From: Erwinia sp. E602
GTDB lineage: Bacteria > Pseudomonadota > Gammaproteobacteria > Enterobacterales > Enterobacteriaceae
Direction: 5' to 3'
Length of the DNA stretch: 64,000 nucleotides
NCBI RefSeq assembly: GCF_018141005.1
Contig: NZ_CP046582.1
Coordinates: 3,472,001 to 3,536,000 of the forward strand
Of this stretch, positions 49,855-60,421 are shown piece after piece (position 1 is the first letter of the stretch; the number at the start of each line of letters is the position of its first letter). The position numbers were made by a program, and so were the translations under genes. The notes beneath the pieces are model-generated. The model was not told the DNA's origin. It was given only the letters and a program-made list of their open reading frames with translations, and ran no database searches.

Positions 49855-49885
49855 CAAAAAAAAACCCGCCATTCGGCGGGTTTTT
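49855..49885 (-). terminator. Bidirectional terminator of cspE and the small ORF
   Basis: CCCGCC/GGCGGG stem with ATTC loop, nine A on the left and five T on the right, so it works on both strands. Confidence 0.92.
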
Positions 49886-49903
49886 AGAATTCTGTCTGAT
49901 AAC

Positions 49904-50113
49904 TTAAATAGCGGCAACGTTAGCAGCAGATGGGCCTTTGGCACCGTTGGTGATTTCGAACTCTACGCGCTGACCTTCAGCCAGAGTTTTGAAACCATTG
50001 CTCTGGATGGCAGAGAAGTGTACGAACACATCTTTGCTGCCATCTTCAGGAGTAATGAAACCGAATCCTTTGGACTCATTAAACCACTTAACGCTACCTT
50101 TGATCTTAGACAT
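49904..50113 (-). CDS. cspE: Cold-shock-like RNA chaperone CspE
   Basis: 69 residues, nearly identical to E. coli CspE. RNP1 KGFGFI and RNP2 VFVHF. Single-stranded nucleic-acid binding and antitermination. Confidence 0.97.
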
Positions 50114-50264
50114 CTAATATTACCTTTACATGAAAAATGGACACTAATCTGTGTCAGGGTTAGTACAGCAATTGCCGAGGCGTTTGTCCAGTAGCCAGCT
50201 ACGAAAAAGTGATAAAAATCGCTTTTTTTTTACTCTGAGTCAGTTTTGTCTCATCCCGGTGAGG

Positions 50265-50834
50265 TTAAAACTGCCAGCGTAACCAGGCAAAATAGACATT
50301 CCCATTATTGTAAGTACCTGGAATATAGGTCATCTGAAAGGTTGCCCTGCCGTAACCCACCGATGCCAGCGGTAAGACTAACGGAACCGGAATATATTTC
50401 CAGTTATCGCGTGCGGTAAACCCGGCGGTATAACCGAGGCCCAGATGGAAGTCAGGATCGTTAAGCGGACGCCAGGTTTTCTCCCAGCCGTAACCGCCAA
50501 TCGGCTCCCACTTGTTGTAGGAGTCCTTAAAGGCCATCAGATAAAGACCGTTCCAGTTCCCCTGCTCATCATAACGGGAGATACCGCCCCCCGCGCCCCA
50601 GGGACGTTCGTTGTAGCGATCGGTTTTTTCTTTATCGTACGTCCAGCGGTTGTGCCAGGTAATGGCAGGTATATAGAGATCGACGCCCTGCGGCTCATTC
50701 CAGGTCTTACTGATATTGCCGGTAAAGGTATTCCACGAGGAGGAAATACCCTCGCTCAGGGTGGAAGCCTGAACGCTGGCTGCGCTCATATTCGCCAGCA
50801 GGCAGGTAAAAATAAGTGTGCTGTGTATTCTCAT
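50265..50834 (-). CDS. pagP: Lipid A palmitoyltransferase PagP
   Basis: 189 residues. Signal peptide (about 1-26), N-terminal amphipathic helix and eight-strand barrel ending in FAWLRWQF. Catalytic histidine in ITWHNRW and Asp-Ser in AFKDSYNKW. Moves palmitate from phospholipid to lipid A in the outer membrane. ATG 50834 with GGGA upstream; in-frame TTG at 50852 is less likely. No clear PhoP box. Confidence 0.95.
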
Positions 50835-51355
50835 CTCAATTCCCGGCTTCAAATTGCCAGATAACGCCAGATTATCCAGCTAAAATCTTTTACTATGCGT
50901 TGTAATAGCTGCACAATTATAACGTTTTAATTTAAATACTCCATGAATAAACAACCGATAGCTGATACAAATATCCGGGAGAATTTAAACATAACCTATT
51001 GATATAGATTAGTATTTTTGAATATTAGGATTTCTCTCAATCTTAGTAAAAACATGAGCGATATGGGCGATAAGGAGAGGAAAAGACAGCATCACTTCAG
51101 ATAATAGAAGTTACCAGAAAAAACCAACCAAATGACTCCAGAAAAATTGACACAGATCATTAAAACAGCGTTTTAAAACAAATTATTTATCATTAAAAAG
51201 AAAAAATGCGCAAAGAAAACAAAAAACACAATACAAAACAACAATTTAAAATAAAATCCTCTGTTTTGTATAATAAATATTTCTGATAGATCTCCGCACG
51301 TTTTTTGTTAAGATATTTCTTATCCAAAAGGATGCAAGGACAGAGGAGAGTGGTG
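50835..51355. other. AT-rich intergenic region
   Basis: About 520 bases, very AT-rich from 50880 to 51330 and sharply different from the GC-rich cluster that follows. Probably holds the pagP promoter and the promoter of the zinc-ribbon ORF, and is a likely H-NS target. No gene or repeat seen. It marks the junction between the core block and the accessory cluster. Confidence 0.6.
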
Positions 51356-51565
51356 ATGTTCAGGTGTGGCAGATGCGGCAGCGCTAAATTTTTCTACACA
51401 ACATCCGGCGACGAATGGGGCCCCCATCATGGTGCCCTCTGTGCATTTTGTCATAAGCGCCTTAATGTCCACGATACTGCCGCCAGCCCGGCTACGCCCA
51501 CCGTGGGCGCTTCATCCAGCCGAGAAAATCCATCCCCGCCGCCGCCCTTTCCTGAATCTTCCTGA
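51356..51565 (+). CDS. Small zinc-ribbon protein, 69 residues
   Basis: Starts MFRCGRCGSAKFFYTT with a CGRC knuckle and a second CAFC knuckle about 24 residues on, then a Ser/Pro-rich tail (SPPPPFPESS). AGAGGAGAG precedes ATG 51356. Family not recognised. It is the first gene after the AT-rich block and runs toward the HAD operon. Confidence 0.6.
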   Translation: MFRCGRCGSAKFFYTTSGDEWGPHHGALCAFCHKRLNVHDTAASPATPTVGASSSRENPSPPPPFPESS

Positions 51566-51588
51566 GCGATCGCCAGCGCAGCCTTTTA

Positions 51589-51765
51589 TTGATTCACACG
51601 CTTGTTTTTAACACATGTCGTAAAACGTGCAATAAATGTCAACCGCCACTCCGGCGGACACTCCTCTGCCGTTGTTGATTCACCATTGAGACCCAAGCTT
51701 ATAACGTGAGAGAGGTAAATAACCTCTCGGATAAAGATTCACGCGGATCTTTTCCGGTGAATCAA
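51589..51765. repeat. Clustered 9-base motif TTGATTCAC upstream of the HAD operon
   Basis: TTGATTCAC at 51589-51597 and 51675-51683, its exact inverse GTGAATCAA at 51757-51765, and a shorter GATTCAC at 51736-51742. A hairpin GAGAGGT-AAATA-ACCTCTC lies among them (51710-51728). Looks like a set of regulator sites before the first operon gene. Confidence 0.55.
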
Positions 51766-51778
51766 CGGAACCTGTTAT

Positions 51779-52507
51779 ATGCATGCGTGTGGACCAGGCA
51801 GTACTTCCCCCGACCGCCCGGCAGAGTGGACTATATTATGTGACTTTGACGGCACCATCGGTGTTGAAGACGTCACCGATACCTTACTGGAAAATTTCGG
51901 CCAGCCAGGCTGGCAGGATGCAGAACAGCGCTGGATGCGCGGTGAGATAGGTTCTGCACAGTGTCTGAGCGAACAAATCGCGCTGCTGGACATGTCGCGT
52001 TCGCAGCTGGAGGCCTGCCTCGAACGCATCACCGTCGATGCAGGATTTGCCGGTTTTGTCCGTCAGGCGCAGGCCAGTGCGATCCCTATCGCCATCGTCA
52101 GCGACGGGCTGGACATCGCCATTCACCATATTCTGCAGCATCAGCGGCTACCCGCGCTGCCGGTATTTGCCAACCGGCTGGTGCAGACCGCGGAGCGCCG
52201 CTGGCGCATTGACTTTCCGCATCGCCATCCCCAATGCCTGCAGGCCAGCGGTAACTGCAAATGCCAGTTCGCGCAACGGCTGGCACCGCAAAGGCTGCTG
52301 GTGATCGGTGATGGCCTTTCCGACTTCTGCGTCGCCTCGCGGGCCGATCACGTCTTTGCCCGTGCCCGCCTTATCGCCGAGTGCCGGCGCGCATCGCTGC
52401 CGTTCACCCCTTTTGACCGCTTCCCTCAGCTACCGGCCGCGCTGGCCCGGTTACAGGCGCAGCATGCAGCCCAGGGCCCGCGGAGGCAACATGACCGCAA
52501 AGCATGA
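51779..52507 (+). CDS. MtnX-like HAD-family phosphatase
   Basis: 242 residues. Motif I DFDGT with nucleophile Asp22 and Asp24, motif II serine in IVSDGLD, motif III/IV VIGDGLSDFCVA. The layout (CDFDGTI..., C-rich CKCQFAQ, GDGLSD, ARARLIAEC) is that of MtnX/HAD-IB phosphatases such as the methylthio-ribulose pathway enzyme, but no other mtn genes are near, so the substrate is probably the product of this cluster. First gene of a five-gene operon; overlaps the next by 17 bases. Confidence 0.85.
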   Translation: MHACGPGSTSPDRPAEWTILCDFDGTIGVEDVTDTLLENFGQPGWQDAEQRWMRGEIGSAQCLSEQIALLDMSRSQLEACLERITVDAGFAGFVRQAQASAIPIAIVSDGLDIAIHHILQHQRLPALPVFANRLVQTAERRWRIDFPHRHPQCLQASGNCKCQFAQRLAPQRLLVIGDGLSDFCVASRADHVFARARLIAECRRASLPFTPFDRFPQLPAALARLQAQHAAQGPRRQHDRKA

Positions 52508-53357
52508 TTACTGGCTGCCCGGCGGACCGGTGGGCGTGCTGCTGGTTCACGGCCTGACCGGTACCCCGCAGGAGATGCGTGGCGTGGCGCGCGCGTTTAA
52601 CCAGGCGGGTTATACCGTCTATGTCCCTCAGCTGGCCGGCCACTGTGGCACGCCGGAAGACCTGGTCAACAGCGGCTGGCGGGACTGGTATCAAAGCGTC
52701 ATTACGGGTGCTGAGGCGCTCTCAGCCCGGGTCGACAGGCTGTTTATCGGCGGGCTGTCGATGGGCGCGGTGCTGGCGCTGAATTATGCCGCCGACTACC
52801 CGCAGCGGGTCAGCGGCGTGCTGGTGTACAGCATTACGCTGCGCTACGACGGCTGGAGCATTCCCGTGCTGTCGCGCCTGGCGTCGCGCTGGCTGCTGCC
52901 GTTCACCGGCTGGCTCAGGCTTGGCCGTAAACGGATTTTCTATGAAACCCCACCTTACGGCATCCGAAATGAGGTGCTGCGCAGGAAGATTGCCGCGAAG
53001 ATGTTCAGCGGTGACAGCGTGGCGGCTGGCCTGCCCGGCAACCCCTGGCCGGCCCTGAATGAGATGAGCCGCCTGTCGCGCCACCTGCGTCGTCACCTGT
53101 ACCGGGTGACCGCCCCCTGCCTGATCCTGCATGCGGCAGAAGATGATATCTCTCACCGACGCAACGCCGAGTGGGTGCGCGACCGGGTCAGCGGCCCGGC
53201 AGAACTGGTGCTGCTGGCAAACAGCTATCATATGATTACCATCGATAATGACCGCAGCGAAGTGTTCCGCCGCTCAACAGATTTTGTTCGCCAGCAGTCA
53301 GCGCCGCCTTTACAGCCCGACTGCAGGTGGATTTCTCAGACCGGAGGCGCAGGATGA
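52491..53357 (+). CDS. Alpha/beta-hydrolase (carboxylesterase/lipase type)
   Basis: 288 residues. Oxyanion HGLTGTP, nucleophile Ser90 in GGLSMGA, acid AEDDI and histidine in NSYHMITIDNDR: the Est30/monoacylglycerol-lipase pattern. Acts on an ester or acyl group; substrate unknown. GGAGG before ATG 52491; longer frame upstream overlaps the HAD gene and is not needed. Stop overlaps the next start (ATGA). Confidence 0.85.
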   Translation: MTAKHDYWLPGGPVGVLLVHGLTGTPQEMRGVARAFNQAGYTVYVPQLAGHCGTPEDLVNSGWRDWYQSVITGAEALSARVDRLFIGGLSMGAVLALNYAADYPQRVSGVLVYSITLRYDGWSIPVLSRLASRWLLPFTGWLRLGRKRIFYETPPYGIRNEVLRRKIAAKMFSGDSVAAGLPGNPWPALNEMSRLSRHLRRHLYRVTAPCLILHAAEDDISHRRNAEWVRDRVSGPAELVLLANSYHMITIDNDRSEVFRRSTDFVRQQSAPPLQPDCRWISQTGGAG

Positions 53358-53713
53358 GCACGCTGACGCTGGCCCTGTGGCTGTTGAACGTAACCGTGGA
53401 CTGCGGCGGGCAGCTGGCGTTTAAAGCGGCGGCGCAAACCGGCTCAGAGCACACCGGCTGGCAGTACTGGCGACAGCTGCCCTCCAGGGGCTGGCTGTGG
53501 CTGGGCATCGCCTGTTACCTGCTGGAGTTTGTGCTGTGGCTGGCCTTCCTGACCCGGGTGCCCCTCGCGAAAGGTGTGATGCTGGGTTCGCTGAGCATCG
53601 TGCTGATCATGCTGGCGGGGCGTCTGCTGTTCCACGAGCGCCTGACCGGCTGGCGGCTGGCGGGAATGCTGCTGATCTCGCTGGGCGTGGCGCTGGTGGG
53701 CGTGCAGGGATGA
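53354..53713 (+). CDS. Small EamA/SMR-type membrane transporter, subunit 1
   Basis: 119 residues with four hydrophobic helices (about 3-20, 45-65, 70-90, 97-117). Size and the QLAFKAAA entry helix resemble ArnE, one half of the undecaprenyl-phosphate-aminoarabinose flippase. Followed with a four-base overlap by a partner, so a heterodimer is likely. Confidence 0.8.
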   Translation: MSTLTLALWLLNVTVDCGGQLAFKAAAQTGSEHTGWQYWRQLPSRGWLWLGIACYLLEFVLWLAFLTRVPLAKGVMLGSLSIVLIMLAGRLLFHERLTGWRLAGMLLISLGVALVGVQG

Positions 53714-54126
53714 AGCGCCTCGCCTGGGGTGGCTTTCTGAGCCTGCTGCTGTTTGACACCCTGGCTCAGGTCAGCTTTAAGTTTGCCGCCCTGCATGCCC
53801 AGCCGCTCGGCGCAGATGCTGCCTGGCTGTGGCGGGTGTTCGGCCACGGTTGGATCTATGGCGCAATCGCGGGCTACCTTGGCGCATTTTTCACCTGGCT
53901 GTCGCTGCTGAAATCCGCCCCGGTCGGCCCGGCGTTTGCCGCTTCGCACCTTGAGATACTCAGCGTCATGCTGGCCTCCGCCTGGCTGTTCGGTGAGCCG
54001 CTGACGCAGGTTAACCTGGCCGGCGCGGGGCTGATCCTCGCCGGCGTCGCCTGCCTGGCGAAAGGCGAAGCGGCGCTGGCCGGCGCGGGGCAGGCGCAAT
54101 CCCCCTCCGTGAAGTCGTCACACTGA
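53710..54126 (+). CDS. Small EamA/SMR-type membrane transporter, subunit 2
   Basis: 138 residues, four hydrophobic helices, QVSFKFAAL in helix 1 parallel to the partner's QLAFKAAA, and GEPLTQVNLAGAGLILAGV at the end as in EamA repeats. ArnF-like half of the pair. Overlaps the aminotransferase by one base (TGATG). Confidence 0.8.
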   Translation: MKRLAWGGFLSLLLFDTLAQVSFKFAALHAQPLGADAAWLWRVFGHGWIYGAIAGYLGAFFTWLSLLKSAPVGPAFAASHLEILSVMLASAWLFGEPLTQVNLAGAGLILAGVACLAKGEAALAGAGQAQSPSVKSSH

Positions 54127-55349
54127 TGCGTTACGCCGCGCGCCGCGAACTGCCGCCGACCGCCGGGTTGCCGCTGCGCTGGCGCGATCTTCTGGCTGGC
54201 CGGCCGGACTTTGCCGCCGCCCTGGCGGCCGAATTTGGTATTCCCGCACCGCTGTTGACCTGCTCCGGCACCGCCGCGCTGATCGTGGCGCTGCGCACCC
54301 TGCAGCAGCAGCAGCCGCAGCGTGATGAGGTGATCGTGCCGGCGTTTACCTGCCCGCTGGTGGCGCTGGCCGCCTGGCACTGCCCGCCGCTGAAGATCGT
54401 CCCCTGCGATCTGCAGCCGGGGCGCATTGATTTTGACCCACGCCAGCTGAGCCAGCTCTGCACCACGCGTACCCTGGCGGTGGTGGTCACCCACCTGGCA
54501 GGTCGGGTGGCCGACGCCGCGACCGCCGCACGGCTCTCCGCCCGCTGCGGCGCGGTGCTGATTGAAGACTGCGCCCAGGCGCTGGGCGCGCGCCGCGGGG
54601 GGCAGAGCGTCGGGCTGATCGGCGAGATCGCGTTTTTCAGCCTGGCGCTGGGGAAAGGGCTGACCACCGCCGAAGGGGGCATCCTGTTCAGCCGCCTGCC
54701 GACGCTGCACGCTGCGCTGGCCCGGCAGATCGCCAGCGACCTGCCGCACCGCCCGCTGGCAGAGCTGGGCCGCATTGCCACGCTGTGGGGCTACCGGCTG
54801 TTCTATCACCCGGACCGTCTTGAGTGGGTGTATGGCCGCCCGCTACGGCGGGCGCTGGCGCGCGGCGACTGGCTGAGCGCGGTGGGCGAGAACTTCACCG
54901 CAGCGGCGATCCCGCTGCACCGGCTGGGGCGCTACCGCCAGCGGGCGGCGGCGGCGGCGCTGCGGCGCCTGCCCGCGTGGCTGCTGCAGGGCCGTGAGCG
55001 GGCGCAGGCCAGGGTTGCCCTACTGGCACGGCTGCCGGGCGTGACCGTGATTCAGGATCGCCATGACGGCGTCTGGCCGTTTATGCTGCTGTTGATGCCC
55101 GACCGCGCCAGCCGCGACGCGGCGCTGGAACGGCTGTGGTGTGCCGGGCTGGGGGTGAGCCGGCTGTTTATCAGCACGCTGCGCCACTACCCTGACGTCC
55201 TGCCGCTGCTCTCCCTGCGCAGTCAGACCCCCAACGCGGATCGCCTTGCCGCCTGCTCGCTGACCCTCAGCAACAGCCCGTGGCTCAGCGACGCCGACTT
55301 TGCCCGTATCCTTAGCGCGCTGGGTCAGGTGCTGCCAGCGCCGGGGTAA
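54126..55349 (+). CDS. DegT/DnrJ/EryC1-like PLP aminotransferase
   Basis: 407 residues. Substrate-side SGTAAL near 48, PLP-ring motif EDCAQALGA (147-155), Schiff-base lysine 177 in SLALGKGLTTAEGG. Members usually aminate keto-sugars, but the C-terminal half here is divergent and Arg-rich, and no nucleotide-sugar genes are nearby, so the acceptor is open. Its last 38 bases overlap the end of the opposite-strand arginase-like gene. Confidence 0.85.
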   Translation: MRYAARRELPPTAGLPLRWRDLLAGRPDFAAALAAEFGIPAPLLTCSGTAALIVALRTLQQQQPQRDEVIVPAFTCPLVALAAWHCPPLKIVPCDLQPGRIDFDPRQLSQLCTTRTLAVVVTHLAGRVADAATAARLSARCGAVLIEDCAQALGARRGGQSVGLIGEIAFFSLALGKGLTTAEGGILFSRLPTLHAALARQIASDLPHRPLAELGRIATLWGYRLFYHPDRLEWVYGRPLRRALARGDWLSAVGENFTAAAIPLHRLGRYRQRAAAAALRRLPAWLLQGRERAQARVALLARLPGVTVIQDRHDGVWPFMLLLMPDRASRDAALERLWCAGLGVSRLFISTLRHYPDVLPLLSLRSQTPNADRLAACSLTLSNSPWLSDADFARILSALGQVLPAPG

Positions 55350-56193
55350 TCTCGGCCAGCAGCAGCCGGTTGATCTGCCGGTGCTGATGCTGCCACGCTT
55401 CCAGCTGCGCCGGGTCGGCCAGCGGCTGGCCGTCCAGCGCGCTGACCCAGCGTTTAAAACGGCGCTGAAAGCGATAAACGGAGGCCTCGCCGGTGATATC
55501 CGCACCGAGCAGCCGTCCGCGGCAGGCGCGGATCAGTCGCAGCAGATGTTGCGGCAGGAAACGCCCCTGATCCCAGTTGGTGGTCACCACCTGCGGGCTG
55601 AGCACGTCTTTATCCAGCGACAGATAAACCGGCAACGGTGCCAGCTGTGACAGAAACCTCGCCATCAGCGTATCCGCATCGTGAAAACAGTGCGGATCGG
55701 GCCGCCGTCCCGGCCAGTTCAGCCAGCGGGTACTGACGTCGAGGCTCCAGTAGGTCAGCTTGCGGCGCAGCTGCGGACCGGCATGGATCTCCCAGCGGTG
55801 ACGCCAGCTGATGTCGTGCGAGCAGATCCCCAGCACGTGGATCGCCCTGACCTGCGGCAGGCGGCTGGCCCAGTACACCCAGGAGCCGCAGTGAATCCCC
55901 AGCGGATAGCGCATGGTATCCGGGTGGTTATCGCAGACGATCAGCTGCAGCGGCTGGGTCACCCGCTGCAGCAGCAGGTAGCTGAGGTGGTGGTAATCGC
56001 CGCTACCGGTAAACACGCAGCCGGGATCCGCGGGAAGCCGAACCGCCAGCAACGACGCCAGCCGCTGAAAGTCCCGCCAGCGGCAGCCGAAGCGGATCGT
56101 CTCCTGCCACGGCTGCAGGGGTAGAACGGTCGCCCGCTCAATGCCGCTGACCGAACCATCAAAATCGAGGATTGCCGGTGGCCGGGAGTTCAT
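55312..56193 (-). CDS. Arginase/agmatinase-fold protein
   Basis: 293 residues. The metal ligands of ureohydrolases are in place in altered surroundings: SGDYHH (64-69) for GGDHS, DNHPD (88-92) for DAHxD, and SLDKDVLSP (192-200) for SxDxDxxDP. So a dinuclear-metal hydrolase of a guanidine or amide is likely, substrate unknown. ATG 56193 overlaps the upstream stop by one base; GTG 56196 is equally possible. Last of a three-gene operon. Confidence 0.75.
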   Translation of the reverse strand: MNSRPPAILDFDGSVSGIERATVLPLQPWQETIRFGCRWRDFQRLASLLAVRLPADPGCVFTGSGDYHHLSYLLLQRVTQPLQLIVCDNHPDTMRYPLGIHCGSWVYWASRLPQVRAIHVLGICSHDISWRHRWEIHAGPQLRRKLTYWSLDVSTRWLNWPGRRPDPHCFHDADTLMARFLSQLAPLPVYLSLDKDVLSPQVVTTNWDQGRFLPQHLLRLIRACRGRLLGADITGEASVYRFQRRFKRWVSALDGQPLADPAQLEAWQHQHRQINRLLLAEITPALAAPDPAR

Positions 56194-57302
56194 CACAGGC
56201 TCCCCCCCTGCTGCATCCGGCTGTCGTGCTCCAGGTGGTGACGAAAACAGCGCAGCGCCCCGCGCAGCAGCGGATGACGCGCCCTGACGAGGTGCCGGGT
56301 CCAGGTGAATTGTGCCCCGAGGCTGGCCTTCACCTGCGGGTCGGTCCAGCCGGCGATATAGGCCTGCAGCCCCTCCGCCAGCGCATACTCCAGATTAACC
56401 ATCCAGCTCACCACGTACAGGTTAAATTTCAGCGCCAGCGCGTAGTCAAAGCCGATGTACTTATCGACCAGCCGGCCCTGATAGCGGTAGCAGAGGTTAA
56501 ATCCCACCAGTTGCTGCTGATGCCAGTAGCAAAACACCATTCCGTCACTCTGCGCATCCTGCAGCAGATGGTTAAAGAAAGCCGGGCTGAGCCGGTCAAA
56601 GTGGATATCACTCTGTTGCCAGACGGCCAGATAACACTGATAGAGTTGGGCCTGCCAGCCGGCGTCGTTGAATCGCGCGTCACCACAGGGCAGCCGTTCA
56701 ATGCGCAGGTGGTGGCGGCTACGCAGCTTACGGCGGATATGGCGGCGGCGACTGTGCGACAGCCGCATCAGATAGTGATCGATGCTGGTAAAATCAATCG
56801 CCACCCACGCCAGCGCCTGGCCCGCCACGCTGATAAATCCGCGCTGCTGCGCTAACGCGCTCAGGCGGTCGCTGTAGTCATTCTCCTCCTGCGTGAGCAG
56901 CGGCGAGGCGCAGGGCAGATCTTTAATAATGGTTAACGGCTGCTGGCTGCAGTGGTCCGCGATCCAGTCAAGCAGCTCGACGGGTTCAGGCTGCTGCGGC
57001 AGGCACGCATACTCACTGGTAGTGGCGCCGATAAAGCAGGTTTCCAGCCATAACAGCTGTTTCCAGCGGCGATAACCCGGCCAGCGGCGCAGCCGGGCGC
57101 GCAGCGAGGGGGCCGCCGTGGTCAACAGATCGAGCCGGGTGGTAAAACCTATCAGTCCATTGTCAGCACGCTGCGCGTCGAAGCCCGGCGGCGGGTGCTG
57201 AACAAAGCCGTTCAATAGCTCCGACGGCTCCAGCTGATTACGGTAACGGGGAGGCAGCACGTTCAAAGGGGAAGTGTCCGCTAACGGGGTGCCTGACGGC
57301 AC
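56193..57302 (-). CDS. GNAT/FemAB-like acyltransferase
   Basis: 369 residues. Central to C-terminal part (about 160-330) has the look of Acetyltransf_6/FemAB proteins: SHSRRRHIRRKLR, then FNLCYRYQGRLVDKYIGFDY. These transfer acyl or aminoacyl groups to amines. GTG 57302 is the first start after an in-frame stop at 57309-57311; there is no strong ribosome site, so coupling to the upstream gene (18 bases away) is likely. Confidence 0.65.
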   Translation of the reverse strand: MPSGTPLADTSPLNVLPPRYRNQLEPSELLNGFVQHPPPGFDAQRADNGLIGFTTRLDLLTTAAPSLRARLRRWPGYRRWKQLLWLETCFIGATTSEYACLPQQPEPVELLDWIADHCSQQPLTIIKDLPCASPLLTQEENDYSDRLSALAQQRGFISVAGQALAWVAIDFTSIDHYLMRLSHSRRRHIRRKLRSRHHLRIERLPCGDARFNDAGWQAQLYQCYLAVWQQSDIHFDRLSPAFFNHLLQDAQSDGMVFCYWHQQQLVGFNLCYRYQGRLVDKYIGFDYALALKFNLYVVSWMVNLEYALAEGLQAYIAGWTDPQVKASLGAQFTWTRHLVRARHPLLRGALRCFRHHLEHDSRMQQGGSL

Positions 57303-57320
57303 CCGGGGTCATCAACAGGC

Positions 57321-58700
57321 TCAGCGTTCCCGCTTCGCACGTACCAGCAGCTGGTCAAGCAGCCTGATTGCCCGATCGATGTCGCTGCGGCTAATCTCCA
57401 GCGATGGCGCAAAGGTAATCACATTTTTGTAGTAGCCCCCCACGTCCAGCACCAGGCCGCATTTTTCACCGGCGTCATCCAGCGTGCCCGACAGGCCGAT
57501 GTCGACCATTTTATCCAGCAGGCCCCGGTCAGGGGTGATGCCGTCAGCGGTACAGAGCTCCGCACGCAGCGCCAGTCCGAGTCCATCCACGTCGCCGATC
57601 TCCCGGTGCTGCAGCTGCAATGACCGCAGCCCCTCAAGGAAGTAAGCGCCGCTTTCTGCCACCTGCCGCCCGTAATCTTTCTCCGCCAGCATCTGCATCA
57701 CCTCCAGCCCGACGGCGGTGCCGAGAGGATTAGAGGCAAAGGTGGAGTGGGTGGAGCCCGGCGGGAAGGTCTGCGGATTGATCATCTCTTCCCGCGCCCA
57801 GATGCCGGCCAGCGGGTTAAGCCCGTTCGTCAGCGCCTTGCCAAACACCAGCACGTCAGGGGTGATGCCGAAATGCTCAACCGACCACAGTTTGCCGGTG
57901 CGGTAGAATCCCATCTGGATCTCATCCACCACCAGTAAAATGCCATAGCGGTCCAGCACCCTCTTCAGCGCCGGATAAAAATTGCGCGGTGGTATAACAT
58001 AGCCGCCGGTCCCCTGCACCGGTTCAATATAAAACGCGGCAAATTCAGACTGCCCGGCTTTCGGGTCCCAGACGCCGTGATATTCGTTTTCAAACAGACG
58101 GGCAAAATCGGCTACCAGCTTATCGGCATACTCTTCTGCGGTCATGCCTTTCTGGCGACGGAAGGGATAGGGAAAAGGGATGAACTGCGCCCGTTCGCCA
58201 AAGTGGCCAAAACGACGGCGGTAGCGATAGCTGGAGGTGATAGCGGAGGCGCCCAGGGTGCGGCCGTGGTAGCCGCCTTCAAACGCAAACATGCGGCTTT
58301 TCCCCTGACAAAAATTGCGCACCAGCTTCAGCGAGTCGTCAATTGACTGCGCGCCGCCAACGTTAAAATGCACGCGGCCGGGCAGGCCAAATTTTTGCTG
58401 CATATCCTGGGCAATCACTTTCGACAGTTCGACTTTACTCGGGTGCAGATACTGGCTGGCCAGCTGCGGCAGGCGATCGATTTGCCGCTTGAGGGCGCTG
58501 TTCAGACGGGGGTTGGCATAACCAAAATTTACCGCCGAGTACCACATCTGTAAATCGAGATAGGGCGTACCCCCGGCATCGTAAAGGTAGCTGCCTTCGC
58601 AGCGGTCAAACACCTTCGGCGGGTTAACATAGTGAACCGTGTCACCATGCGAACAGTAGCGGGCTTCATCCAGTAGCAGACGTTCATTACGACAGTCCAT
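57321..58700 (-). CDS. Class III PLP-dependent aminotransferase
   Basis: 459 residues. Phosphate-binding GGAQSIDD, EGGYHGRTLGA, VVDEIQMGFYRTG (Asp259) and Schiff-base Lys288 in FGKALTNGLNPLAG. Family members act on omega-amino groups (ornithine, diaminobutyrate, putrescine). Start ATG 58700 has AGGAG five bases before it; GTG 58706 overlaps that site. Opens the leftward operon with the acyltransferase and arginase-like genes. Confidence 0.9.
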   Translation of the reverse strand: MDCRNERLLLDEARYCSHGDTVHYVNPPKVFDRCEGSYLYDAGGTPYLDLQMWYSAVNFGYANPRLNSALKRQIDRLPQLASQYLHPSKVELSKVIAQDMQQKFGLPGRVHFNVGGAQSIDDSLKLVRNFCQGKSRMFAFEGGYHGRTLGASAITSSYRYRRRFGHFGERAQFIPFPYPFRRQKGMTAEEYADKLVADFARLFENEYHGVWDPKAGQSEFAAFYIEPVQGTGGYVIPPRNFYPALKRVLDRYGILLVVDEIQMGFYRTGKLWSVEHFGITPDVLVFGKALTNGLNPLAGIWAREEMINPQTFPPGSTHSTFASNPLGTAVGLEVMQMLAEKDYGRQVAESGAYFLEGLRSLQLQHREIGDVDGLGLALRAELCTADGITPDRGLLDKMVDIGLSGTLDDAGEKCGLVLDVGGYYKNVITFAPSLEISRSDIDRAIRLLDQLLVRAKRER

Positions 58701-58837
58701 GGTCACTCCTTACACTTCACCATTGAAGTCTCGGGAGTATATCCAGCCACAGGGAGATGACATCCGTCGCCAGCGCCGCGTTGAACGGCGGTTTAACGTC
58801 AGCGCACGTATCGTGTTTTGCTGCAGAGGGGGGGTGC

Positions 58838-59065: not shown

Positions 59066-60421
59066 CTACACCAGCAGGGAGATCAGCCAGACCAGTACAA
59101 ACCCGGTAACGCCCATCGCGGTCGTCAGCACCGTCCAGGTTTTAAGCCCGTCCGCCACCGACAGCCCGAGGTAGCGGGTCACCACCCAGAAACCGGCATC
59201 GTTAACGTGGGACAACCCCAGCCCGCCGAAACAGGCCGACAGCGTCACCAGCACCAGCTGGATCTCACTCTGCCCGCTGACCGCCTGCGCCAGCAGCCCG
59301 CTGGTGGTCAGGATCGCCACCGTGGCAGAGCCCTGCGACGCGCGCAGCGCCAGCGACAGAATAAAGGCGGCGGGGATCAGCGGCAGGTTGATGGTCTCCA
59401 GCGACAGCGCCAGCGCCTTACCGACGCCGGACTCCACCAGCACCTTACCAAAGGCACCGCCGGCCCCGGCCACCAGAATCACCCCGGCCGATCCCGGGAT
59501 TGCCCGCTCCAGCAGCTCGCTCAGGCGGTCTTTACTCCAGCCGCGGCGCAGGCCCAGCAGCCAGGCGGAGAGCGCCAGCGCAATCAGCAGGGCAATTGCC
59601 GGCGTGCCGACCAGAGACAGCAGCTGGCGCAGGGCACTGCCCGCCGGCAGCACCGTATGCGCCAGGGTCCCCAGCACGATCAATACGATCGGCACCACGA
59701 TCAGCCCGGAGATCAGCCAGGCCCCCGGTGGCCGCTGACCGTCGGTCGGCGTCGCGCTTTCCGGCTTCGCCAGCTGCATCTGCTCCAGCACGTCCAGCGA
59801 CAGGTGATACTGACGGCGGTTCATCGCCTTCGCCACAAAATAGCCGACCACGCCGACCGGAATCGACACCAGAATGCCCAGCAGCATCACCCAGCCGATG
59901 TCGCTGTGCAGCAGGCCGGTGGCAGCGGCGGCCCCCGGATGGGTTGGCAGCGCCACGTGCACCGTCAGCATCACGCCGGCCATCGGCAGGCCATACTTCA
60001 GCGGCGACACGCGCGCCACCTTGGTGAAGCCGTAGATCAGCGGGATGACGATAATAAAGCCGACCTCAAAAAATACCGGAATGCCGAGAATAAAGGCGGC
60101 AATAGTCAACGCAGCCACGGTACGCTTCACTCCCAGAGAGCGGGTAAAGCGCTGGGCCAGCGACTCCGCGCCCCCGGACGACTCGATAATCGCGCCGAGC
60201 ATCGCCCCGAGCACGATGATAATGGTGATGGCTCCCAGCAGGTGCCCCATGCCGTCGACGATCACCTTCATAATATTATCCACCGGCATGCCGGTAGCGA
60301 GGGCGACCAGCAGGCTGACCACCAGCAGAGCAACAAACGGATGAACCTTGGCTTTAATCACCATCACCAGCAGCAGCAGCACGCTGGCCACGGCGATGGT
60401 TAACAACAGGGCGGTAGACAT
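59066..60421 (-). CDS. GntP-family permease of the acid-sugar operon (YgbN-like)
   Basis: 451 residues, about 12 membrane segments. GntP family features: PTHPGAAAATGLLHSDIG, FFEVGFIIVIPL, LALRASQGSATVAI and GGLGLSHVNDAGFWVV. Likely imports the four-carbon acid sugar (threonate or erythronate) degraded by the upstream genes; last gene of the operon. E. coli ygbN is in the same place. Confidence 0.85.
   Translation of the reverse strand: MSTALLLTIAVASVLLLLVMVIKAKVHPFVALLVVSLLVALATGMPVDNIMKVIVDGMGHLLGAITIIIVLGAMLGAIIESSGGAESLAQRFTRSLGVKRTVAALTIAAFILGIPVFFEVGFIIVIPLIYGFTKVARVSPLKYGLPMAGVMLTVHVALPTHPGAAAATGLLHSDIGWVMLLGILVSIPVGVVGYFVAKAMNRRQYHLSLDVLEQMQLAKPESATPTDGQRPPGAWLISGLIVVPIVLIVLGTLAHTVLPAGSALRQLLSLVGTPAIALLIALALSAWLLGLRRGWSKDRLSELLERAIPGSAGVILVAGAGGAFGKVLVESGVGKALALSLETINLPLIPAAFILSLALRASQGSATVAILTTSGLLAQAVSGQSEIQLVLVTLSACFGGLGLSHVNDAGFWVVTRYLGLSVADGLKTWTVLTTAMGVTGFVLVWLISLLV

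Follow-up and report, generated by a model that had tools for sequence, protein, structure and literature searches.

Arn and MprF are the described strategies of cationic-peptide tolerance with which the locus analysed here is best compared. MprF unites a lysylphosphatidylglycerol (LPG) synthase catalytic domain and a multi-pass flippase domain in a single protein, and ornithine-lipid synthesis (OlsBA/OlsF) relies on an OlsB-type N-acyltransferase using acyl-acyl carrier protein (ACP) together with a PlsC-type OlsA. The available part of PMC2922099 also describes neighbourhoods of aminoacyl-tRNA-synthetase-like proteins that contain Fem/MprF-type ligases and an ornithine-generating arginase. 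Here we analyse eight open reading frames at 51779-58706 of a 64,000-nucleotide stretch of Erwinia sp. E602 (the window; contig NZ_CP046582.1, positions 3,472,001 to 3,536,000), five rightward and then three leftward, tail to tail. They encode a HAD phosphatase, an alpha/beta hydrolase (ABH), two short EamA proteins (EamA and EamB), a DegT-family aminotransferase, an arginase-fold ureohydrolase (Arg), a FemAB-like transferase (Fem), and a class III aminotransferase (AT3). This set is best read as a cationic envelope-lipid pathway not described so far, in which an ArnE/F-like pair would act as flippase and Fem-Arg-DegT would form a separable decoration, its product and steps being deduced from the genes. 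We file the cluster under cationic envelope modification.

Conservation across bacteria

The 80 named loci compared below are the best-scoring of 455 candidates confirmed with the arginase-fold profile. Genes were called by per-gene score cut-offs, which leaves the split AT3 of L056 (two pieces) out of the tally. Some of the 80 loci are truncated at a contig end; 60 extend 9 kb to either side, and 34 of those 60 carry the seven genes. All locus and genome counts are raw values that ignore relatedness. Seven of the eight families, with DegT as the optional one, occur together in 43 of the 80 loci, in 12 orders (arrangements) and on differing strands; all eight are present in 23. The seven-family loci span Gamma-, Beta-, and Alphaproteobacteria, as well as Nitrospira and Desulfovibrio metagenome-assembled genomes (MAGs), and the 80 loci as a whole also include Pseudomonas, Acinetobacter, Gilliamella, Frischella, Dyella, Stenotrophomonas, Xanthomonas, Bartonella, and Rhodocyclaceae. 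As for single families, Fem adjoins the arginase gene in all 80 loci, followed by EamA and EamB (71), ABH (55), DegT (51), AT3 (46), and HAD (45).

The cluster is conserved, is not a chance assembly, and forms one inherited functional unit. The same had been proposed from the tight gene packing in an earlier interpretation of the letters of the window (the sequence-only reading), which named mostly independent occurrence of the two operons as the pattern that would speak against it; the 43 loci that keep seven genes show the opposite.

Genes missing from a locus are often found elsewhere. An AT3 orthologue with 58-75% identity was detected in 10 of 12 genomes whose fetched locus has no AT3 (13 genomes were searched, L063 being left out as AT3 lies in its own locus; L069 is counted, with AT3 ~13 kb from the arginase gene, just beyond the fetched flank). 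Within the eight such regions fetched, HAD adjoins AT3 in every case and the hydrolase does so in four. Pseudomonas splits the set into Fem-Arg-DegT-EamB-EamA (sometimes without DegT) and a second locus with MipA and HAD-AT3-ABH-second FemAB-histidine kinase. DegT is not an essential member and was rejected as such: beyond its presence in 51 loci, no full-length relative exists in 11 of 20 tested genomes, which were chosen mostly because their locus missed a gene. A class-wide sample of 369 genomes contains the arginase gene (E <=1e-50) in three and AT3 (E <=1e-120) in six, own genome included, and all three belong to the six. Acinetobacter rathckeae carries the cluster twice on one contig (L030 and L031, ~85 kb apart, identical scores), either as a recent duplication or as an assembly artefact.

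Modularity and distribution in Erwinia

In a family sample of 198 genomes, four, including the genome itself, have a close homologue of the arginase (E no worse than 3e-101), and two more have a weak one (E ~5e-4). In a genus sample of 37 genomes, AT3 is present in 10, i.e., the genome itself and nine others with 86-88% identity. AT3-bearing loci were fetched from seven of these nine (G590 and G617 were left out). Two of them have all eight genes, three contain HAD-ABH-EamA-EamB-AT3 only, and two (L149 and L151) also gave no hydrolase match. Thus, five of the seven possess HAD, AT3, and the EamA pair but no DegT-Arg-Fem, either at the same chromosomal site or at another, and three of these five also have the hydrolase. 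DegT-Arg-Fem is likewise missing from the HAD/AT3/EamA-pair locus of G226 (L112).

Four of the seven loci lie between pagP and a gluconate-permease-like (gnt-like) gene, as in the window, and three lie elsewhere. Since pagP stands directly beside the gnt-like gene in two loci without the cluster (L144 and L147), we infer that the cluster was inserted at this site. The gnt-like gene itself is present in 24 of the 37 congeneric genomes. Because both gene content and sites vary among the seven Erwinia loci, the core (HAD, AT3, the EamA pair, and usually the hydrolase) is separable from the Fem-Arg-DegT decoration module, and the cluster comes and goes. Of the two-operon unit originally proposed, the unit is thus real, while the true division runs between core and decoration module rather than between the two operons.

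Among plasmid records, 47 match the arginase gene (10 of them over >=80% of its length) and 34 match AT3, always at identities below 80%; for each of the two genes, 17 records are typed as conjugative. Mobile-element borders were also sought, which yielded no inverted repeats of >=18 bases and only three weak two-copy direct repeats.

Protein families

According to Pfam and NCBIfam profiles, the family assignments of the sequence-only reading hold for all eight proteins. None of the proteins passes a listed equivalog (pathway-level) model (for AT3, among the best 25 of 69 matches), and hence no gene proved to be the best hit of a described pathway. Residues are called conserved when kept in >=95% of the aligned sequences (alignments of 44 to 71 sequences).

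Among the core proteins, the phosphatase matches TIGR01489 with 95.4 bits (cut-off 81.55), as well as PF12710 and PF06888, and passes the MtnX-like and HAD-IB subfamily models; its DxDGT motif, S108, K161, and D178/D182 are conserved (44 sequences). The hydrolase matches PF12146 (1.2e-23) and conserves its triad, with the GLSMG nucleophile S91, D219/D220, and H248 (54 sequences). AT3 has a class III aminotransferase profile (PF00202, 7.1e-73, 246 bits) and a conserved K290 (45 sequences), presumably the pyridoxal phosphate lysine. It is probably a separate class III subfamily, because the usual Arg of the 'DVRG' motif is replaced by Asp (D374) in 43 of the 45 sequences. The AT3 family is very large, with 5847 of 7999 scored candidates at E <=1e-100, and the 120 rows shown carry generic names only.

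The first and second short EamA proteins match PF00892 (3.7e-10 and 1.5e-6, respectively), and for both the top NCBIfam match is ArnF (5.5e-9 and 2.8e-6), under its cut-off. They reach 36.5 and 27.8 bits against the ArnF model (cut-off 99), and 29.8 and 23.9 bits against the ArnE model (cut-off 92). Identity to the genome's own ArnE is ~30%, with 37.5% over 56 residues for the second protein. An N-terminal motif is conserved in both (D..GQ..FK with D16/G19/Q20/K24 in 71 sequences, and D..Q..FK with D16/Q20/K24 in 60). Judged by these scores, the two proteins are related to ArnE/F and not members of either family. Both also have secondary matches to SMR drug/amine exporters.

As for the decoration module, DegT matches PF01041 (1.1e-38) with a conserved K177 (45 sequences). 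The arginase-fold protein is just over the Pfam cut-off of the arginase family (22.1 vs 22 bits) and has the ureohydrolase fold with invariant metal-motif residues, as in the binuclear site of this superfamily, which has the motifs GDxHH, DxHxD, and DxD. Fem (369 residues) matches PF04339 (FemAB_like) and PF13480 (Acetyltransf_6), with ATE_C under the cut-off and no LPG-synthase Pfam model matched. No significant PDB match was obtained with the sequences of Fem and the arginase-like protein (best E 0.45, 0.55, and 0.4; 0.45 for the arginase-like protein). The predicted fold of Fem is a tandem-GNAT Fem fold resembling FemX, MprF, and Sbb17, and in fold comparison tRNA-dependent enzymes score 15.8-18.2 vs 13.9 and below for acyl-CoA enzymes such as N-myristoyltransferase. 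Fem therefore appears structurally closer to aminoacyl-tRNA-dependent transferases than to GNATs of the acyl-CoA type, which refines its earlier description as an acyltransferase: the FemAB/GNAT family stands, the acyl-CoA type does not fit as well.

Envelope and lipid genes beside relatives

MipA/OmpV genes are found near the cluster in 29 of the 80 loci, a histidine kinase (one cluster) in 20, and a response regulator in 19. One kinase/regulator pair was tested, with best matches to PmrA and QseC, under the cut-offs. In L102 12021-13796 (Pseudomonas), L122 12767-15957 (Aureimonas), and L123 11888-15098 (Roseomonas), a large histidine kinase replaces the OmpR-type pair; it is HAMP-type in L102 and L122, and a sigma-54 activator is annotated in L122 and L123. 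According to the available text of PMC10936184, MipA and MipB are polymyxin sensors acting with ParRS in P. aeruginosa, and that of PMC9426598 places a MipA-family gene in the BesRS regulon of Burkholderia thailandensis, tested with polymyxin B.

Lipid genes also recur. An Agrobacterium fabrum plasmid has a single co-directional run of HAD-AT3-arginase-EamA-desaturase-hydrolase-GNAT-EamA-cyclopropane synthase, followed by MipA, EptA, and diacylglycerol kinase (DgkA). Its EptA-like protein passes the phosphoethanolamine-transferase domain cut-off and not the EptA equivalog, and its cyclopropane synthase is just under the cut-off. One Rhizobium plasmid resembles this run up to MipA (desaturase, cyclopropane synthase, MipA). 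UppP adjoins DegT in Roseomonas, and fabF-acp stands beside Fem in 12 of the 80 loci. In 23 loci (16 from Pseudomonas and 7 from Dyella, with 24-28% identity between the groups), Fem has a penicillin-acylase-family gene in its vicinity. L112, L055, and L116 have MacB- and TolC-type genes next to the pathway; HlyD, ABC, and FtsX/MacB proteins stand beside HAD-AT3 in L104; and in Xanthomonas sacchari the annotated companions are HlyD, ABC, and TolC. In the window, the cluster has no such neighbours of any of these kinds. An 'either/or' pattern of MipA versus MacB was considered and not adopted, as the loci are too few. In six public records, the relatives' genes carry family names only.

Proposed pathway and alternatives

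We consider the chances about even that the eight genes constitute a modular pathway, spread by horizontal transfer, whose product, a lipid or lipid-linked group with a positively charged amine, is moved across the inner membrane and alters the surface charge of the envelope. Protection against antimicrobial peptides is perhaps the role of the product. The HAD phosphatase and AT3 would make an amino head group, and the hydrolase may trim or transfer an acyl chain, a part for which relatives would add a desaturase, cyclopropane synthase, or FabF-ACP. The two short EamA proteins would pair as an ArnE/F-like flippase. In the full version only, Fem would add an amino acid, most plausibly arginine, from aminoacyl-tRNA onto the amine. 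If it is arginine, the ureohydrolase would cut the guanidine and leave an ornithine-like free amine, a chemical deduction made because the two genes adjoin in the 80 loci. In relatives, a polycation-sensing MipA/two-component pair would switch the pathway on. The envelope-related amine pathway with a flippase-like pair anticipated by the sequence-only reading thus gains support, while nothing independent speaks for its de-esterified small molecule, the relatives' neighbours being lipid and polymyxin-response genes.

Several points weigh against the cationic-lipid reading. A shared fold is not a function, and lipid, amine, and substrate are all deduced from genes. The core has no glycosyltransferase, phospholipid synthase, or AMP ligase and hence gives no pointer to a lipid acceptor, and hosts such as Dyella and the Nitrospira MAGs give none to host peptides. 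Identity between Fem and MprF is only 8-14%, acyl-CoA GNATs share much of the fold, and fabF-acp in 12 loci suits an acyl-ACP donor as well as tRNA. The relatives' regulators were counted within ~20 kb, so that some may be chance neighbours, and in the window neither MipA nor a regulator stands beside the cluster (the genome has one unlinked MipA-like gene and an EptA elsewhere). Finally, L053 (Acinetobacter seifertii) and L077 (Rudaea) have Fem-Arg and no AT3 orthologue in a genome search (E <=1e-120); these pairs are either remnants or a variant.

Part of this evidence would fit a soluble polyamine- or guanidine-like metabolite, with the short EamA proteins exporting that amine instead of flipping a lipid, as the paired small amine/drug exporters MdtIJ and EbrAB do. 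Polyamines and guanidines are known substrates in both the ureohydrolase and the class III aminotransferase families, the core contains no obvious lipid synthase, and for the second EamA protein the SMR matches are almost as strong as that to ArnF. ArnF, however, is the top match of both short proteins, and relatives have lipid or envelope genes next to the cluster (desaturase, cyclopropane synthase, fabF-acp, EptA, DgkA, and UppP), which makes the soluble product rather unlikely. Fem could also be an acyl-ACP-dependent N-acyltransferase making a fatty amide in a secondary-metabolite cluster, where the amine comes from DegT and AT3 and the product leaves the cell as a signal or antibiotic through a MacB-TolC-type or other exporter. 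The fabF-acp genes beside Fem, the exporter genes of L112, L055, L116, L104, and X. sacchari, and the penicillin-acylase-like genes speak for it. These partners, however, are lineage-specific, most of the 80 loci and the window itself being without them, and the fold scores of N-myristoyltransferase-type acyl-CoA enzymes stay below those of tRNA-dependent ones; we regard this explanation as unlikely.

That two unrelated operons lie tail to tail by accident, with no common pathway, might be suggested by the loci without HAD or AT3, by the split set in Pseudomonas, and by Erwinia loci with no Fem-Arg-DegT. Against it stand the seven-gene loci in 12 orders with differing strands, the AT3 genes found elsewhere in 10 of 12 genomes, and the Agrobacterium run, which mixes genes of both operons; accidental neighbourhood is highly improbable.

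If the cationic-lipid reading is true, a widespread envelope-charge route in Gram-negatives of bees, plants, animals, and soil has so far gone unannotated, a tRNA-dependent transferase and a ureohydrolase are linked in one lipid pathway, and the two-component/MipA modules beside the genes in many relatives would be accounted for. A conserved cluster would thereby become directly testable by lipidomics.

Gene organization

The layout described in the sequence-only reading is exact to the base. The rightward genes overlap by 17, 4, 4, and 1 bases, Arg and Fem overlap by 1 base, Fem and AT3 are 18 bases apart, and the convergent 3' ends have 38 bases in common (55312-55349). An alternative GTG 3 bases upstream of the Arg ATG would extend the Arg/Fem overlap to 4 bases. 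GC content of the cluster is 64.2%, compared with a mean of 58.0% (standard deviation 1.7, maximum 61.2%) for 6.9-kb windows over 1-50200. The names of the flanking genes, pagP (lipid A palmitoyltransferase) and the gluconate-permease-like gene, are our assumption.

Table 1. Features of the cluster and its surroundings. Leftward genes start at 56193, 57302, and 58700.
Feature	Coordinates	Strand	Remarks
HAD-IB phosphatase, MtnX/PHOSPHO1-like	51779..52507	+	core
Alpha/beta hydrolase (ABH)	52491..53357	+	core; missing from 2/7 fetched Erwinia loci
Short EamA protein, putative first half of ArnE/F-like pair	53354..53713	+	core
Short EamA protein (EamB), putative second half of ArnE/F-like pair	53710..54126	+	core
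Divergent DegT-family aminotransferase	54126..55349	+	decoration module, optional
Ureohydrolase (arginase-fold) protein (Arg)	55312..56196	-	decoration module; start ATG 56193 or GTG 56196
FemAB-like transferase, probably aminoacyl-tRNA-dependent (Fem)	56193..57302	-	decoration module
Class III aminotransferase AT3	57321..58706	-	core; start ATG 58700 or GTG 58706
Flanking pagP	50265..50852	-	left border of insertion site, outside cluster
Flanking gluconate-permease-like (gnt-like) gene	59066..60421	-	right border of insertion site
Penicillin-acylase-like gene, examples in relatives	L007 6386-8740; L070 2991-5318		Pfam tested on L070 only

Between pagP and the HAD gene lies an AT-rich gap (50853-51778, 40% GC) with two overlapping promoter-like sites at 51245-51274, upstream of the HAD gene. 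The promoter scan reported seven sites vs 2.3 (standard deviation 1.6) in shuffles, four of which lie in the AT-rich gap (50999-51454, both strands) besides the two overlapping ones. The terminator scan gave 8 vs 7.4 in shuffles. The sole Rfam match is a cspA thermoregulator RNA (RF01766, 158.7 bits) at 49856-50275 on the minus strand, upstream of the cluster.

Comparison with known systems

No description of the cluster was found in the open-licence PMC literature, in line with the earlier statement that no described system has this set; this is weak evidence, with subscription journals and preprints outside that scope. None of the eight proteins matches PADLOC models of anti-phage defence (E <=0.001), and four proteins tested against the phage gene set gave generic aminotransferase matches only. 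Ornithine-lipid synthesis of the OlsBA type was rejected as well: the eight proteins have no such Pfam matches, and the OlsI match of the hydrolase reaches 13.5 bits vs a cut-off of 385.

The neighbourhoods of PMC2922099 differ in being centred on a synthetase paralogue, according to the available text, and none is encoded among the eight genes; the same text mentions no flippase, EamA, or aminotransferase. Known ureohydrolases (arginase, agmatinase, guanidinopropionase) share the fold and metal-motif residues of Arg, which nevertheless forms a distinct group at the edge of the Pfam cut-off with a best PDB sequence match of E 0.45. FemX/FemA and the streptothricin aminoacyltransferases Sbb17/Sba18 differ from Fem in genomic setting and have 8-14% identity to it.

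An arnBCADTEF-like operon lies ~16 kb from the cluster, beyond the window (G000:C2:3546283-3553663; L161, 10283-17663), with ArnB, A, D, T, E, and F above the NCBIfam cut-offs (six proteins tested, the gene in the ArnC place being outside the test). Together, pagP, the cluster, and the arn operon make three envelope-modification loci in ~32 kb. Since this genuine operon is separate, and the eight proteins include no ArnA, ArnC, ArnD, or ArnT homologues and score far below the Arn cut-offs, identity with Arn was rejected. The likeness lies in the DegT aminotransferase and short EamA flippase pair, and in PmrA-like regulators near some relatives. MprF membership was also rejected, because Fem is too short for both MprF domains and has no LPG-synthase match. 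Unlike MprF, Fem is a separate protein without the MprF membrane domain, beside a ureohydrolase in all 80 loci (which were chosen by the ureohydrolase). A bolder version of the cationic-lipid reading is possible and doubtful: an undescribed class of cationic membrane lipid, horizontally spread over several phyla, with a transaminated head, tRNA-dependent arginylation, a ureohydrolase yielding an ornithinyl lipid, and a heterodimer flippase, which would be a third strategy of cationic-peptide tolerance beside Arn and MprF. The predicted fold of Fem is shared with MprF, and both would follow one principle, in which a lipid receives an amino acid from tRNA as a guard against cationic peptides; the outcome would be akin to that of MprF and Arn, with negative charge masked by another route.

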